A stretch of 64,000 nucleotides of DNA from Anaerosolibacter sp. (GTDB lineage Bacteria > Bacillota > Clostridia > Peptostreptococcales > Thermotaleaceae): assembly GCF_029240175.1 (NCBI RefSeq), contig NZ_JARBTM010000001.1, positions 186,001 to 250,000 on the forward strand, given 5' to 3'. Shown piece by piece: positions 11,642-52,795 of this stretch. The notes beneath the pieces are model-generated. The model did not search any database and was not told the DNA's origin. It saw nothing but the letters and a program-made list of their open reading frames with translations. A program made the translations under genes and the position numbers. The stretch's first letter is position 1; each line of letters begins with the position of its first letter.

Positions 11642-11689
11642 GAGCGTTCAACGACAACACTTCCTAGCCTTCCCTCCGAAGGTAGTGAT

Positions 11690-11850
11690 ATCAGCAATAG
11701 GCAGGTCTCCTGGCTCATGAATCAATCTACTTCCCCTCACCTTCCCGATGAATCAGTGGCTTTTTTGGGGTTTCGTCATCACTTACAGTAGCGGGGGCTG
11801 CGACGGTTTTTCACCGTACTTCCCTATTCTTCCTAAACGGAACCTAATGC
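11690..11850 (-). promoter_or_regulatory. Cobalamin (B12) riboswitch aptamer, no gene attached
   Basis: On the minus strand, in order: GGTTCC, AATAGGGAA, GGTG with AAACC, GCAGCCCCCGCTACTGTAA, GCCACTG, GGGAAGG, and the B12 box GCCAGGAGACCTGCC. These are the conserved blocks of the cobalamin riboswitch (Rfam RF00174). The aptamer is complete, but the next 280 nt in its direction contain two terminators and no ORF before tetR (11406). Such elements normally control B12 synthesis, transport or B12-independent isoenzymes; none is adjacent. Confidence 0.95.
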
Positions 11851-12367
11851 AAATCATATTCACTTATGTTAAATTATAGAGCTTTTTTTGAAAAAGTCAA
11901 GCTAACAGCCTCATTTTTATATGATTATTATTCTTCTTTACCTGATATCTATAAAAGAGTAACTTACTAACCAAACTATGCTATTAAAAAATTTTAGCAA
12001 CTCAAAGAATGATTATTATCTCTTTAAATTTCAAAAATATTTTTGGATATAAATACCCTAATTTTTTCCATTGTTGGCTTTATTTTTAATAGTTTTTTTA
12101 CTTTTTTGTCATAATTTTATCATTTTATTAACATATACATAAGATACATATATTACTTTTCCTGCTTTTCAACTTGAACAATTGTATATTTATTACTTTA
12201 TTTGTATGTTTTATTATTCAAATGACAATACTTTGACAAAAAATCTACAATTATTCCCTAATTATAAACATTCAGAAAAGTAAAAATAATCATTGCTAAT
12301 TATTTTGAAACTATTTATAATGGAAGTTGAAATAGAAATCATACATTTTAAAGGAGGGAGCACTCTT
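11851..12367. other. AT-rich intergenic region
   Basis: Very AT-rich, no ORF seen on either strand. It should contain the promoter of the riboswitch RNA (minus) and the promoter of the NSS symporter (plus, near 12293-12321). Confidence 0.4.
12293..12321 (+). promoter_or_regulatory. Sigma-A type promoter of the NSS-MetS operon
   Basis: TTGCTA (12293-12298), 17-bp spacer, TATAAT (12316-12321), 46 bp before the symporter ATG. Confidence 0.6.
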
Positions 12368-46140: not shown

Positions 46141-48270
46141 CTAATCAAGGCCTTTTTCTTGATCTGCAAGCAATTTTTCCAATGCATCGGGGGATACTGG
46201 CTTACTAAATAAATATCCTTGGGCTTTATCACAGTTTTGTTCTTGAAGAAATTTATGTTGGGTCTCTGTTTCGATTCCTTCTGCTGTCACAGTAAGATTC
46301 ATGCTGTGGGCCAAAGTAATCAATGATTTGGCAATAGCCTCTTCATTGGAACCCATAGTAATATCCTTTACAAAGCTTTTATCTATCTTCAATGTATCTA
46401 TTGGCAGCTGTTTCAAATAATTCAAAGAGGAATATCCGGTTCCAAAATCATCCAAAGCGATCTTAATGCCTAAGCTTCTGAGCTTTTTAAGTATCTCCAC
46501 AGTATGTGCTAAATCTTTCATGGCCAAACTCTCCGTGATTTCCAACTCTATGTACTCAGGCTCTAAATCATTTTCTAAGATGATGCGATGAATCATCTCC
46601 ACCAAATTCTGTTGTTGAAACTGTCTCGCCGAAAGATTGATGCCAATTCCTAATGGTGGATAGCCTGCATCCTTCCATTTCCTGCACTGGCTACAAGCTT
46701 CACTTAATATCCATTCTCCTATATCCATAATCATTCCCGTCTCTTCTGCTATGGGAATAAACTTTACAGGAGGCACCATTCCCCAGACGGGATGATTCCA
46801 TCGAATAAGGGCTTCAACACCTACTATTTTTCCATTTTCCAGATCTACTTGGGGCTGATAATGAAGTAATAATTCTTTACGTTCTAAAGCACGCCTTAAG
46901 CTATTGCTCATTTCAAGCTTCTCTACAATCTTTTTATTCATATCCATGGTATAGAATCGAAAATTGTTCTTTCCGAAGTCCTTTGCACTATACATGGCTG
47001 TGTCTGCATTTCTAAGGAGGGCATGCCGATCTTCTCCATCCAATGGATATACGGCGATACCAATACTAGTCGTAATATAAAACTCTCGGTCATCTAGAAG
47101 CCAAGGGTTTTGGAAAGCTGCAAGCACCCTATTGACAACCGGTATAACATCCTCTTTTTTCGTAATACCGGGCAAAAGAATGGCAAACTCATCTCCCCCT
47201 AATCGGGTAACAATTCCCTGTTCACCAAGACATCGTCTCAAAAGCTCCCCCACATTCTTCAGCAGCAGATCTCCAAAAATATGGCCCAAGGTATCATTAA
47301 CCATTTTAAAATTATCTAGATCTAGATAAAGCAAAGCGGTCATTTCTCCTTTTTTCTTCGAATCCTCTAAGGAAGTAGAAAGACTTTCTTCAAATACCAC
47401 ACGGTTTGGTAACTCAGTTAAATTATCATAATAAGCCAGCCGATGTATCTTCTCTTCTGCCCGCTTCTGATTGGTTATATCCTTATGGGAGCCTACCATT
47501 CTGATGGGATTTCCATGATCATCCCATACAGCCTTTCCCCGACTGGCAATCCAACGATAATCGCCTTCCTTCGTCCGTAATCGATACTCATGCTCATAGG
47601 AAGGTATTTTTCTACTTAGATATTTTCCCCTTACTTCCAAGGTACTGGCAATATCTTCAGCATGGATGATACTCTGCCACCCTTCTATTGTGTTGGGAAT
47701 CTCATCTTCCTCATACCCTAAGATTTCCTTGGTTCGGTTGAAGAAAAAATTGTCTTGTTTGGTTATATCGTGAACCCAAATTCCATCACTGGTTCCTTCA
47801 AGGGCTAATCGATATCGTTCTTCGCTCTCTTTTAAAGCTACTTCACTTTTCAAAAGCGCATCATATTTTTCTTTTAAGGCTTCCTCGGTAGCGATAAGCT
47901 GCCCATGGACAGCTTCTAGTTCTTCATAGCTCTGAATCAGTTTCTGATTCCAATACTCGCCTTTTTTCAAGCTGCTTCCGACCATAAAGTAAATCATGAT
48001 CCCTGTGACAAAGATAAACATCCAGCCCTTGATGGTTTGTACCATGGTTAAAGTTTCAATATTATTAAAAAGCTCGGCAAGGGCTTCATCAGATAATATG
48101 ACCCATGCACAACCTATGGTTAAGTAAAGCAGTGCTACCTTTATCGGTACAAGGGATAACTCCGGTTTTTTATGTAATGCCAATAACCCTTTTATTCCAT
48201 CGACTTCCTGGCTAGTATCCCTTTGTTGAATCGACTGCTTCCATCCATTATCTTTGTTTGTCTTGTTCAT
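46141..48270 (-). CDS. PAS-GGDEF-EAL cyclic-di-GMP signalling protein
   Basis: 709 residues. Two N-terminal membrane helices (about 43-62 and 80-100) with a short external loop, coiled coil, PAS/PAC domain (about 145-265), GGDEF domain (about 280-435; TRLGGDEFAILLPG intact) and EAL domain (about 450-700; GVEALIRWNHP, ELEITESLAMKD, DDFGTGYSSL intact). Both cyclase and phosphodiesterase sites look functional, so it could make or break c-di-GMP depending on the PAS signal. AAAGGTGT precedes the ATG. Monocistronic. Confidence 0.95.
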   Translation of the reverse strand: MNKTNKDNGWKQSIQQRDTSQEVDGIKGLLALHKKPELSLVPIKVALLYLTIGCAWVILSDEALAELFNNIETLTMVQTIKGWMFIFVTGIMIYFMVGSSLKKGEYWNQKLIQSYEELEAVHGQLIATEEALKEKYDALLKSEVALKESEERYRLALEGTSDGIWVHDITKQDNFFFNRTKEILGYEEDEIPNTIEGWQSIIHAEDIASTLEVRGKYLSRKIPSYEHEYRLRTKEGDYRWIASRGKAVWDDHGNPIRMVGSHKDITNQKRAEEKIHRLAYYDNLTELPNRVVFEESLSTSLEDSKKKGEMTALLYLDLDNFKMVNDTLGHIFGDLLLKNVGELLRRCLGEQGIVTRLGGDEFAILLPGITKKEDVIPVVNRVLAAFQNPWLLDDREFYITTSIGIAVYPLDGEDRHALLRNADTAMYSAKDFGKNNFRFYTMDMNKKIVEKLEMSNSLRRALERKELLLHYQPQVDLENGKIVGVEALIRWNHPVWGMVPPVKFIPIAEETGMIMDIGEWILSEACSQCRKWKDAGYPPLGIGINLSARQFQQQNLVEMIHRIILENDLEPEYIELEITESLAMKDLAHTVEILKKLRSLGIKIALDDFGTGYSSLNYLKQLPIDTLKIDKSFVKDITMGSNEEAIAKSLITLAHSMNLTVTAEGIETETQHKFLQEQNCDKAQGYLFSKPVSPDALEKLLADQEKGLD

Positions 48271-48523
48271 AGTAGAACACCTTTCATATAGAAATTTATA
48301 TTTTTCTCATTAGCGGATGCATGTTACAGCCTGTCGGCAATTTGATATCTTTTATCTGTCCGTTATCATATAAATACTTATCAGTATTATATAGTATTCA
48401 TTTGCAAGTTTCTACATCGTTCTCCATATTTTGCGTTTATTTTTTCTTTTTCTAAATCCCTGTTTATCCCTTTCACCCATGCCAAATTATTTGTGGTATA
48501 ATATACACAAGAGGTGATCATAA

Positions 48524-48736
48524 ATGAAAAAGAAAAAAGCAATACAGAAAGAAAGCATCCATCTCGATGGAAAAAAGGCTTTTATCCACAGTGCCAACAA
48601 ACTTAATCGCAGCATGTCTGAAGTATCACGGGGTTGTGGTGTTATGGGAGATGTAAAATACAATCGAAAGAAAGTAAAAAGATCCGTCCAAAAGGAACTG
48701 AAAGATAATTGGACGGATCTTTTAATATTTAATTAG
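48524..48736 (+). CDS. Small basic protein with a terminator-like hairpin inside its coding end
   Basis: 70 residues, strongly basic N-terminus (MKKKKAIQKES), a middle with SANKLNRSMSEVSRGCG, and a Lys-rich region (KYNRKKVKRSVQKELK). AAGAGGTGAT precedes the ATG. A 15-bp perfect stem (48677-48691 with 48709-48723) followed by TTTTAATATTT lies in codons 52-67, before the stop at 48734. Transcripts ending there would have no stop codon. This layout resembles arfA of E. coli and brfA of B. subtilis, small basic ribosome-rescue proteins made from non-stop mRNA. The sequence itself is not recognised. Confidence 0.65.
   Translation: MKKKKAIQKESIHLDGKKAFIHSANKLNRSMSEVSRGCGVMGDVKYNRKKVKRSVQKELKDNWTDLLIFN
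48677..48723. terminator. Hairpin terminator located within the small basic ORF
   Basis: AAAAGATCCGTCCAA (48677-48691) with TTGGACGGATCTTTT (48709-48723), loop 17 nt. T-rich downstream on plus (TTTTAATATTT) and on minus (TTTTTACTTTCTTTC), so it may also end the convergent gene that stops at 48739. Confidence 0.75.
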
Positions 48737-48738
48737 CC

Positions 48739-49338
48739 TCATTGAATGAGTATTTCCACAATCTCATTCATGCTCGTTCCCCTTTTGATGCTCTTCTTAC
48801 CGGGAACCACGTTTTCTTTTTCTTTTAATGCACCTAAGATATACGTTAAGCTGGCCTCATCATCAATCAATTTGGCCTCATATATCTTTTGTGAAGTCAC
48901 ATGATGCTTTCTTGATACTACGCCCAGCAGCTGGGTTACTTTCCATCCTTGGCTGATAATGCCGTGATCGGTTAACACCTGTCCAGCTTTCACAGTATCT
49001 AGTGTTCTTAGGTTTAAAAGGATTTTAAAGTCCTCTTTACTTGCTATTAATTGCTTCCGATACAGCATTTCTGCTATTTCTTCCGATGATAGCCCTTCCT
49101 TGATCACAATCTGAACAATTTCTGGCTCATTTGCTGATTCCTCTTTGCTTTCTTCATTATCTACAATTTCTTTGTCGGTTGGAGTTTCTTCCTGAACGAC
49201 CTGGTTGGCAGCATCAAGCCTCCCCATGACCTCTTTTTGATAATTCGTCATCTTGGTTCCTACCATGCCTAACATTGAAGCGATAATCAATCCCATTCCA
49301 ATCCCTAATATAAATACAAATCGTATATGTCTTTTCAA
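48739..49338 (-). CDS. YceG/MltG-like membrane protein lacking the catalytic domain
   Basis: 199 residues. One membrane helix (about residues 5-25), a linker rich in Glu/Asn, then two copies of the LysM-like subdomain of the MltG (YceG) family: IVIKEGLSSEEIAEMLYRKQLI (about 88-110) and KSIKRGTSMNEIVEILIQ at the very end. The catalytic YceG domain with its essential Glu is absent. Proteins of this type are common in Clostridia; role unknown, peptidoglycan-related by homology. TTG start at 49338 chosen because AAGGAGGCAAAA precedes it. Confidence 0.75.
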   Translation of the reverse strand: MKRHIRFVFILGIGMGLIIASMLGMVGTKMTNYQKEVMGRLDAANQVVQEETPTDKEIVDNEESKEESANEPEIVQIVIKEGLSSEEIAEMLYRKQLIASKEDFKILLNLRTLDTVKAGQVLTDHGIISQGWKVTQLLGVVSRKHHVTSQKIYEAKLIDDEASLTYILGALKEKENVVPGKKSIKRGTSMNEIVEILIQ

Positions 49339-49462
49339 TTTTGCCTCCTTATGCCCTTCGTGGTCCAATAAATAGTTTCTATCTTATTATATCGTCATCA
49401 TATATTAAAACAAAAGACCTATTTATTGTTTATAAGGTACCATTTCGTGGAACTGAAAGGAA

Positions 49463-49538: not shown

Positions 49539-50906
49539 CTAAGCTTCAGAAATCTCTTGTTCCTGCTCTTTTTTATTTTCATATGCTTTCTTTACTCCGA
49601 TTAGGAAATGAAGAACAATCCCTGCAGCTAATCCCCAAGCAGCACTTTGGAAGGCAAGGAATATAGCCATAATTCCTGCTACGCCAGCCTCTTCCTTGCT
49701 CTTTAGCATATCTACCGCAATATAAGTACATGCAAAGCCTTGTACAAGGAGCGTAAGAGAAAGTCCTGCAGGAAGTACTGGTTTAACCAATGAAATAACC
49801 GGCATAAAGAAGGCAGCTATGGCCATGGCAAAGACAAAGGAGCTTATACCTGAAAAAATACTATCCATAGCTTTTCGACCATGCTTATATCTTTCTGCGT
49901 TTGCAATGGTTCCCCCTGCCCACAATGGGCCGCATAATGGTGCATATGGTGCAAAAATTCCCATGATCAGGTTTCTAATTCCTGAGATAATATTTGATCT
50001 CGTTGGATTGAATTCAATGACTTCATCTTGTCGGACTTGATCAGCATCTTTCGTCACAACCTCTGCCAATACAAAATCTCCAAAAGCAATAATATACGCT
50101 GCAAACACCATTGGTATCGCCTTTATAAAGTATGCCAAAGGAGGAAACCCAGGTGTACCTAAGACTGTATATCCACTGATTAGCTCTCCAAATCTTAAGC
50201 TGACTACCCCACCTTCGATGACAGGAGCAGGTATCTCTCCAACAATAGGACCAATAATTGCTGCAACTATAAATCCAGGTAACATTCCGTATTTGGATAC
50301 CTGACCCAAGAACGCGCTTTTATTTTTTGCCACTGCAAAACGCCATGAGAATAATACTAGAAAGCAAAGGGCTGCTCCCACCAATATCGTAATCTCTTTT
50401 CCTTCCATTCTTCCACCAGGTTTGATTACCCCATGAACTGCAGCTATACCAGCTCCTAGAATGATTCCAGCTCTTAAGGAAACGGGCACATAGGAGACTA
50501 ATTTTTTAGCCAAGCCTGTTACTCCCATAAAAGTGAATAATACTGCCATTGATAACTGCAATGCGATAATTGCATGAATTCGATCAGGTCCTTCTGGGAA
50601 TCCACCTGCAAAAGCAAGTACCAAAGGAATAGCAGGTGTAATCCATCCAGGAAACACGGGATCACCAAATGTAGGGTGTAAAATATAAAGCAATCCATTT
50701 AATATCATCATGGTCAGTGCAACCTCAAAGGAACACCCTAAGGTTTCTTGAACCACTGGTATCGCCCCCATGGGTACCGCAACCAGTAATATCCCCTGTA
50801 TTATTTCTGGTAATTCCCAGCGGTAGTGAATAAATGGCAGCCGCAGTTTAAAAAGTCCTAAACTTATATAGGGTTGTTCTTTTCCATACTCTCTAACAAT
50901 GGCCAT
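49539..50906 (-). CDS. NCS2/SulP-like multi-pass permease
   Basis: 455 residues, 12-14 membrane helices. Resembles solute carrier families built on the 7+7 UraA fold: VSLRAGIILGAGIAAVHG, GLPGFIVAAIIGP-like and FGDFVLAEVVTKDADQ segments. No xanthine/uracil signature I can be sure of. It is the last gene on the same strand as the CoA-transferase and AbfD-like genes, separated by a 337-bp gap, so a role in uptake of the pathway substrate (a carboxylate) is plausible. AAGGAGGG precedes the ATG. Confidence 0.8.
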   Translation of the reverse strand: MAIVREYGKEQPYISLGLFKLRLPFIHYRWELPEIIQGILLVAVPMGAIPVVQETLGCSFEVALTMMILNGLLYILHPTFGDPVFPGWITPAIPLVLAFAGGFPEGPDRIHAIIALQLSMAVLFTFMGVTGLAKKLVSYVPVSLRAGIILGAGIAAVHGVIKPGGRMEGKEITILVGAALCFLVLFSWRFAVAKNKSAFLGQVSKYGMLPGFIVAAIIGPIVGEIPAPVIEGGVVSLRFGELISGYTVLGTPGFPPLAYFIKAIPMVFAAYIIAFGDFVLAEVVTKDADQVRQDEVIEFNPTRSNIISGIRNLIMGIFAPYAPLCGPLWAGGTIANAERYKHGRKAMDSIFSGISSFVFAMAIAAFFMPVISLVKPVLPAGLSLTLLVQGFACTYIAVDMLKSKEEAGVAGIMAIFLAFQSAAWGLAAGIVLHFLIGVKKAYENKKEQEQEISEA

Positions 50907-51243
50907 AATAACCCTCCTTATTCATTAAAAATTCAGAAATATGTTCTTATGAAAGCATCCTTACATTCAATTCATCGATATATTTACCTATCAGAACGGT
51001 GGTATAGATGGCTGTCATCCTTAACACCAATTATTTGTAGGGTCCTCTCCCCTATTTCAAGGGTGAGAGGCCCCATACTCATACTTTCATTAGCAACTAG
51101 TATGCTGTGAGGTCCACCCTCACTGAAAGCAGGAGTCCAACAAATGTAATGATTCGTATAACATCCCTGTCGATGTCCTCGGTCACATCCCCTATAGGGT
51201 GAAATGCCTTATGTGTTCGTCAAATTTACTATATTCTTGTTGC
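50907..51243. other. Gap between AbfD-like and permease genes
   Basis: No intact gene. Minus-strand RNA can fold GGGGCCTCTC with GAGAGGACCC (near 51030-51072) and GTGAGGGTGGACCTCAC (near 51108-51125). One minus frame stays open for over 70 codons without a start until late (GPLTLEIGERTLQIIGVK), which could be a decayed coding remnant or chance. Promoter for the permease not recognised. Confidence 0.35.
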
Positions 51244-52701
51244 TTACTTTTTTGGAGGTTCTGCAAGATCAGCTGTGATACCAGCAATTCTCTTGGCATC
51301 AGATGCATGGTCTTCCCATTTTGTAAGTGCTTTAACTACTAGCTTGGCACCATCAGGAGATCCACCACCGTGCATACAACCTGGGATGCCGCCGCCAACT
51401 GTCAGCCATTCAACAAGACGAGCTGCACGGGCACGAGACTCGCCATCTGTACCAGCTGTAAGCGTTTCGATCAACTTCTTACCGTATTCTGGATGCTGGA
51501 AATCAGCGTAGGGAGGCATACAACCTGTCTCTGCTATACCACCACTGATATCCTGGGCCATAACCTTTACATCATAGGGCAGTTTTGCAACTTGCGTCTT
51601 GTTGGTATGGGCTAATAGAGGGCTAGGAATAAAGGTTCCTGAGGCAGTCTTCTTACCTTTTACCATGGCACCAAGTCCCAATCCATAAGTAATTTCATTT
51701 TTTATTGCCATTTCATTGAGGGTAGTTTGGAATGTCTTTTGGGAAAGCCCGTTGGCGCGAGCCATGTTGATAGCAGCTCCAATCATGATGTCACCCTGGC
51801 CAGCAACGCAAGCACCGATGGCTGCACGGTATATAGCCGCAAAATCACCGATAATCTTGCCAGAGTATTTGAATTCACCACAGAGGAATAAACGCTCATT
51901 AGGTACAAACACATCTTCAAAAAGGATGTAAGCCTGAGTAATGTTACCAACCTTTGGGGCATCCCAACCTTCTTCCAAATCCCGCTCATCACTTGGACGA
52001 CGAGTTTCTATGATGGTGATCCCTGGAGCATCCTTGGGGATTGCACCGGCTACACAGAAATCAGCATCATCTGCACCATAACCGCTGGTGGGAATAAACA
52101 CAAGTTCATGGGCAGCTGCAGTACCGCAGATCTGGATTTTATAACCGCTGATAACAACACCATCTGCCCGTCTTTCTTTAATATGTAGGTAGGAGTCTGG
52201 ATTGGATTGCTGTGATGGCTTCAGAGAACGATTCCCTTTCGCATCAGTTATTGCGCCTACCAATGCAAGGGCATTGTCCTCCACATGCATCATATAGTTT
52301 TTAAGCCGCTCATGATAATTGGTACCGTTTTCTTTATCACATTGGAATGTTGCATCCCAAAGAGCAGAAAGGACGGTCCAGCCCGCACAAGTAGCCCCGG
52401 TACAGGTACCAGACCAGCGATATTGGTCACGTTTCATATCAGCATTGCCAACAATGTCTTCCATTGAGGTCATGAGCGTATTCCAACGATGGGCTTTTTC
52501 ACCAGAAAGGAAAGATATTGTGGTATAAAGTGGAGATTTTTTCTCGTCAAAAGCCATATCATAAGCGTGGGCAACTGATTCAACGTGCAGCCTCGTTGCA
52601 GCATGTGTTGTAACATCCTCGATTAGTTCACCAAACTTGTAAATATTTGGACGCATTTTCTTTAAGCTCTCTTTGTACTGATTTCCATTCATTAATGTCA
52701 T
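51244..52701 (-). CDS. 4-hydroxybutyryl-CoA dehydratase (AbfD)/HpaB-family flavoprotein, divergent
   Basis: 485 residues, full length for the AbfD/HpaB family (acyl-CoA-dehydrogenase-like fold, FAD). AbfD dehydrates 4-hydroxybutyryl-CoA to crotonyl-CoA using FAD and a [4Fe-4S] cluster bound by Cys99, Cys103, His292, Cys299 (known for Clostridium aminobutyricum). Here the cysteine pair is Cys100-x4-Cys105 rather than x3, the His position reads Tyr291 (AAIYRAAIGAC) and the last Cys is Cys298; the Lys after it is Val. So the cluster may be altered or absent. Adjacent CoA-transferase and beta-oxidation genes support a CoA-ester lyase or dehydratase role. ATG at 52701 with AAGGAGTG; a TTG at 52707 is less likely. 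Confidence 0.85.
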   Translation of the reverse strand: MTLMNGNQYKESLKKMRPNIYKFGELIEDVTTHAATRLHVESVAHAYDMAFDEKKSPLYTTISFLSGEKAHRWNTLMTSMEDIVGNADMKRDQYRWSGTCTGATCAGWTVLSALWDATFQCDKENGTNYHERLKNYMMHVEDNALALVGAITDAKGNRSLKPSQQSNPDSYLHIKERRADGVVISGYKIQICGTAAAHELVFIPTSGYGADDADFCVAGAIPKDAPGITIIETRRPSDERDLEEGWDAPKVGNITQAYILFEDVFVPNERLFLCGEFKYSGKIIGDFAAIYRAAIGACVAGQGDIMIGAAINMARANGLSQKTFQTTLNEMAIKNEITYGLGLGAMVKGKKTASGTFIPSPLLAHTNKTQVAKLPYDVKVMAQDISGGIAETGCMPPYADFQHPEYGKKLIETLTAGTDGESRARAARLVEWLTVGGGIPGCMHGGGSPDGAKLVVKALTKWEDHASDAKRIAGITADLAEPPKK

Positions 52702-52795
52702 ATTCAATCACTCCTTAATCATATTTTGTCATGCTTTCCTACCGGACCTTAATGCTTTCAATGGCTTTTCTCTATATCCCCTTTTAGCACGCGCT

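Follow-up and report, generated by a model that had tools for sequence, protein, structure and literature searches.

A clostridial gene with a terminator-like hairpin inside its own reading frame encodes a candidate back-up ribosome-rescue protein

BrfA (YqkK) of Bacillus subtilis and ArfA (YhdL) of Escherichia coli are small basic ribosome-rescue factors. The brfA gene, reported in a subset of Bacillaceae, has 71 sense codons and an intrinsic terminator inside its frame, which yields a non-stop mRNA and a tagged product of about 62 aa with a positively charged C-terminal part (PMC6881298). The arfA gene, with 72 codons, carries a hairpin in the 3' part of the frame, where RNase III cleavage or early termination makes a non-stop mRNA whose product is repressed by tmRNA (PMC3989581). 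ArfT of Francisella tularensis, of about 40 aa, is a further small RF-recruiting rescue factor (PMC6514570, PMC8012679). In a published survey ArfB and ArfA are each tabulated in 5 of 2,633 Firmicutes, while its text speaks of 10 species of the B. subtilis group (PMC11633108), and a review expects further rescue factors that sequence similarity may not reveal (PMC8012679). A family recognised by its mRNA architecture would begin to fill that gap, suggest that the non-stop, tmRNA-sensing design evolved repeatedly, and give a search rule (small basic ORF, hairpin before a drifting stop codon) for finding more. In the literature searched, which lacks most subscription journals and was judged by titles and starts of abstracts, no paper on ribosome rescue or BrfA in clostridia, or on ribosome rescue in Alkaliphilus, describes such a factor; in PMC11317155 the one clostridial mention concerns a structural match of YlmH.

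We analysed a 64,000-nucleotide stretch of Anaerosolibacter sp. (the window; contig NZ_JARBTM010000001.1, positions 186,001 to 250,000, assembly GCF_029240175.1), in which an initial annotation had marked a small basic ORF with a hairpin before its stop codon as a candidate ribosome-rescue factor. The observation was confirmed, and the features of the locus are collected in the table below. The encoded protein has 18 K+R against 7 D+E and a pI of 10.2, and its hairpin, in which 15 of 15 positions pair, ends 10 nt before the stop. The segment 48670-48740 has an MFE of -21.4 kcal/mol (z = -5.4), and 0 of 200 shuffles were as stable. The structure is hardly a by-product of the protein sequence, as evidenced by 1 of 400 synonymous recodings of the ORF that gave an equally good hairpin and T tract, and 15 of 500 that gave an equal stem score without regard to the T tract. 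With a limit of -15 kcal/mol, 2 of 58 ORFs of the window have such a structure in the end of the frame, the other being a doubtful 78-codon ORF with a terminator-like hairpin of -19.3 kcal/mol, which is probably a spurious frame over the terminator region of a minus-strand gene. We note that a simple terminator scan did not list the site, as it allows loops of 3-8 nt and this loop has 17, and that the U tract, with 5 T in the 8 bases after the last G-C pair, is interrupted.

Features of the candidate rescue gene and of other elements in the window
Position	Strand	Feature	Basis
48494-48502	+	extended -10 promoter box TGGTATAAT, which would give the gene its own short leader	read in the sequence; function inferred
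48510-48518	+	Shine-Dalgarno AGAGGTGAT, 5 nt before the ATG	sequence; the other 16 members also have a G-rich SD-like stretch there, by eye
48524-48736	+	ORF of 70 codons, ATG start, basic protein of the new family	sequence and family searches
48524-48676	+	codons 1-51, conserved protein core (around K-L-N-x-S-M-x-x-V-x-x-G-C-G-x-x-x-D-x-K-Y-N-R-K-K)	alignments; third-position-biased changes to the sister gene
48677-48723	+	internal intrinsic-terminator-like hairpin, codons 52-67 (5' arm 48677-48691, loop 48692-48708, 3' arm 48709-48723)	folding, shuffles, recodings, covariation
48720-48730	+	U-rich tract TTTTAATATTT	sequence; 3' end inferred
48734-48736	+	stop codon TAG, expected to be absent from most transcripts	sequence; its distance from the hairpin varies widely in relatives
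48739-49368	-	convergent neighbour, weakly YceG-like; could share the same hairpin as its terminator	E 1.2e-4, below the Pfam cut-off
46141-48270	-	divergent upstream neighbour, PAS-GGDEF-EAL protein	
50874-51110	+	doubtful ORF with a terminator-like hairpin near its end	
51244-52707	-	gene whose terminator region the doubtful ORF probably overlies	
11683-11862	-	cobalamin riboswitch (RF00174), the only Rfam gathering-level match in the window	124.7 bits

To establish whether the protein has relatives, we began with a single-sequence search, which gave 9 of 148 genomes, the own one included. Profile searches then gave 13 hits in 393 genomes of the order (one of them chance), 5 of 391 of the class (two chance), 6 of 20 of the Alkaliphilus-holding family, 1 of 67 of a second order, 5 of 398 of the phylum (two chance), 3 of 73 of the order of the distant carriers and, finally, 25 of 393 of the own order at E <= 0.05, of which 13 are true by motif and 12 were dropped. 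Hits were dropped before counting when, judged by eye, they lacked the family motif or lay inside other frames, and because only the best 15-16 first-look candidates per genome were scored in the searches of the order (both times), the class and the phylum, carrier counts are lower bounds. In all we found 17 genes: 13 among the 393 sampled genomes of the order (Anaerosolibacter and Alkaliphilus kin), one in another order and three in another class, which is perhaps that of Desulfitobacterium, a guess from genome sizes. Carrier genomes are denoted here by G and a number, G000 being that of the window gene. First-discovery E-values, by queries that did not yet contain the sequence, were 1.6e-7 for G122, 0.007 for G012 and 0.009 for G042 with the single sequence, 4e-12 for G007, 2e-11 for G011, 6e-8 for G133, 2.5e-10 for G609, only 0.001 for G118, 2e-12 for G1147 and 2e-11 for G1185, whereas G1198 was found at 5e-19 with a profile that held its sisters. 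G012 and G042, placed in different families, carry nearly identical loci and are not independent; the G012 copy is on a 6.5-kb contig, which suggests contamination or recent transfer. A broken second copy in G609 (L030/L036; positions 801-920 of L036, on contig C26), with its frame interrupted by TAA and an altered C-terminal part, lies beside an intact copy on another contig and was not counted. All 17 proteins have a pI of 9.8-10.5.

The initial annotation had proposed that homologues be searched for absence of the internal hairpin, and this test was passed: in 17 of 17 family genes a hairpin has its 5' arm, or the beginning of it, before the stop, with changed sequence. In ten (G000, G001, G017, G092, G082, G072, G122, G012, G042 and G609) the hairpin lies wholly before the stop with a U-rich tail; for G122 the program drew the stem out through the T tract and into the stop, although by eye the GC-rich stem and the T run TTTTTATTTTT both precede the stop. 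In G007, G011 and G118 the stop is in the 3' arm of a terminator-like hairpin, so that plain termination at the U tract would leave the stop on the mRNA, and these genes would need cleavage or trimming. In G133, G1147, G1185 and G1198 the stop lies within a long hairpin with a U-poorer tail (0, 3, 5 and 4 T, respectively, in the 8 bases after its last G-C pair, against 5-7 in the others apart from G122). Such a hairpin would suit cleavage by RNase III as described for E. coli arfA (PMC3989581), a step that must be assumed, though weak termination is not excluded, above all in G1185. The suggestion in the initial annotation of a further, clostridial rescue family is supported as to layout and sequence novelty, with two corrections: the family also reaches a second class, and in 7 of 17 members the stop codon lies inside the hairpin and not after it.

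The hairpin looks selected as RNA. In six related genes the 13-bp stem is paired in 98.7% of cells with 4 of 13 pairs changed on both sides, whereas sliding the arms reduced pairing to 35.9-59.0% with 0-1 such pairs. In the shuffle control, on these 6 related sequences only, 1 of 500 shuffles reached the cells paired and the covariation score, 23 of 500 the number of pairs changed on both sides, and 128 of 500 the number of pair types. In the three distant genes an A-T pair of the stem has become G-C in one, with one side in codons and the other beyond the stop. Each of the ten in-frame terminators is matched in hairpin and T tract by at most 3 of 400 synonymous recodings, and against dinucleotide shuffles 15 of 17 hairpins had 0 of 200 as good by stem score, while G012 had 4 and G609 had 11. 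The stem of G609 alone is not above chance (215 of 500 recodings), only with its T tract (0 of 400). Among neighbour ORFs of 100 aa or more, 1 of 36 has such a structure at -14.5 kcal/mol or below.

By contrast, the sequence after the hairpin does not look selected. In the closest pair, G000 and G001, codons 2-51 comprise 25 same, 14 synonymous and 11 non-synonymous codons (8, 4 and 20 differences at positions 1, 2 and 3), whereas codon positions 68-90 have 0 same and 23 non-synonymous, although only 68-70 lie before the stop of G000. The frame runs 58-83 nt past the hairpin in G001, G092, G082 and G072, into unlike residues, as is expected if the stop codon is rarely on the mRNA. To examine whether carriers possess trans-translation we searched for its genes, and found tmRNA above the Rfam cut-off in 16 of 16 carriers tested and SmpB in 17 of 17. 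ARAGORN called a tmRNA in only 1 of 4 loci tried, and because lower-scoring Rfam matches also appeared in archaeal controls, only matches over the cut-off were counted.

Taken together, our preferred explanation, held with moderate confidence and without experimental evidence, is that the gene makes a mRNA that ends at the internal terminator, before the stop codon. Ribosomes would reach the 3' end and stall, and tmRNA-SmpB would normally tag the roughly 65-residue product for destruction, so that little accumulates. When trans-translation is overloaded or missing, the untagged protein would be released, enter the empty mRNA channel of non-stop ribosomes with its basic part, and recruit a canonical release factor (most likely RF2) to free the peptide. 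The layout is well supported, whereas the RNA ends, tagging, ribosome binding, release-factor partner and rescue activity are inferred.

The sequence evidence bears on the mRNA and not on the activity, and it therefore remains possible, though less likely, that the protein is controlled by trans-translation as above and yet does another job that is wanted when trans-translation is saturated, such as ribosome hibernation, splitting or a stress signal. The lack of detectable similarity to ArfA or to any solved chain leaves room for this reading, as does the presence of RqcH in 2,557 of 2,633 Firmicutes (PMC11633108), such that these cells usually have another rescue route; on the other hand, the two small basic proteins known to us with this layout, ArfA and BrfA, are rescue factors. 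We consider it unlikely that an inefficient terminator merely lies near the end of an ordinary small basic gene whose transcripts mostly read through to give the full 70-aa protein. The interrupted U tract of the window gene and the 7 of 17 stops inside the hairpin are compatible with read-through, but the unlike sequence after the hairpin in the closest sister genomes, the very different distances of the stops, the 10 of 17 hairpins with U-rich tails wholly before the stop and the rarity of such structures in neighbour ORFs speak against it.

Equally unlikely is the alternative raised in the initial annotation, that the hairpin only serves the convergent gene and overlaps a small gene by compaction. 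In the window the convergent gene ends 2 nt from the stop of the ORF and the hairpin is followed by TTTTT on that strand too, so the hairpin may also end the convergent transcript, and in 11 of 17 members the nearest downstream ORF of 100 aa or more is convergent. However, it is co-directional in 6 of 17 (G012, G042, G118, G1147, G1185 and G1198, the first two being near-copies), which still have the hairpin, and the convergent genes differ between genera, that of G001 looking by eye like the same gene as in G000. The hairpin thus travels with the small gene, and a role solely as the terminator of the convergent gene is not supported. A phage or plasmid origin was likewise rejected: no tblastn match of the window protein was obtained at E <= 10 in 50,697 phage and 72,556 plasmid records, none of 37 pattern-matching stretches in viral contigs was confirmed as a relative, and only weak matches to PHROG families were seen (best E 0.0056 among 15 members).

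To compare the protein with described families, we searched profile and structure collections. The window protein matches nothing in Pfam or NCBIfam up to E = 10, and of 16 members scanned (the G042 protein equals that of G012 and was left out) none is matched convincingly, the best being 0.015 in Pfam (DUF4985) and 0.0074 in NCBIfam (RimK family). Four of the 16 (L057, L058, L059 and L071, numbered by locus) match the middle part of DUF7230 (PF23876), of unknown function, over the G-V-H-x-D-K-x-x-Y-x-R-K region at E 0.02-0.065, below the Pfam cut-off of 27 bits; this may point to a distant uncharacterised kin family and is a lead only, and no paper in the literature searched holds the name. 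The single sequence matched 48 PDB sequences at E <= 10, mostly OspA (best E 0.021), which we take as chance, and the predicted structure was of low confidence (mean pLDDT 63.8; helices 16-21, 32-35 and 48-68) and was not used.

None of the 16 members matches the ArfA profile (PF03889) up to E = 1, while E. coli ArfA does (E 9.2e-26), and profile comparison with ArfA by hhalign gave a probability of 0.4%; ArfA membership was accordingly rejected. The family profile found no PDB chain at E <= 10 in a collection containing at least the RF2 chain of entry 6szs, the complex of B. subtilis BrfA with RF2; membership in BrfA, with which no direct alignment was made, is unproven. The Lys-His pair shared by ArfA and BrfA, which in BrfA (K49-H50) contacts 16S U534 (PMC6881298), is present in 1 of 17 proteins (G133) and absent from that of the window. 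It is about as likely as not that these genes represent a third, independently evolved family of non-stop-mRNA-encoded alternative rescue factors, spread over the window's class and a second class of the phylum, in which one protein family makes its mRNA non-stop in more than one way: by an intrinsic terminator in most members and, in others, by a long, U-poorer hairpin enclosing the stop that would be cut by an RNase III-like enzyme. The architecture and size are those of BrfA and ArfA, and a factor that works like ArfA/BrfA, but is not detectably related to ArfA, remains the best-supported reading.
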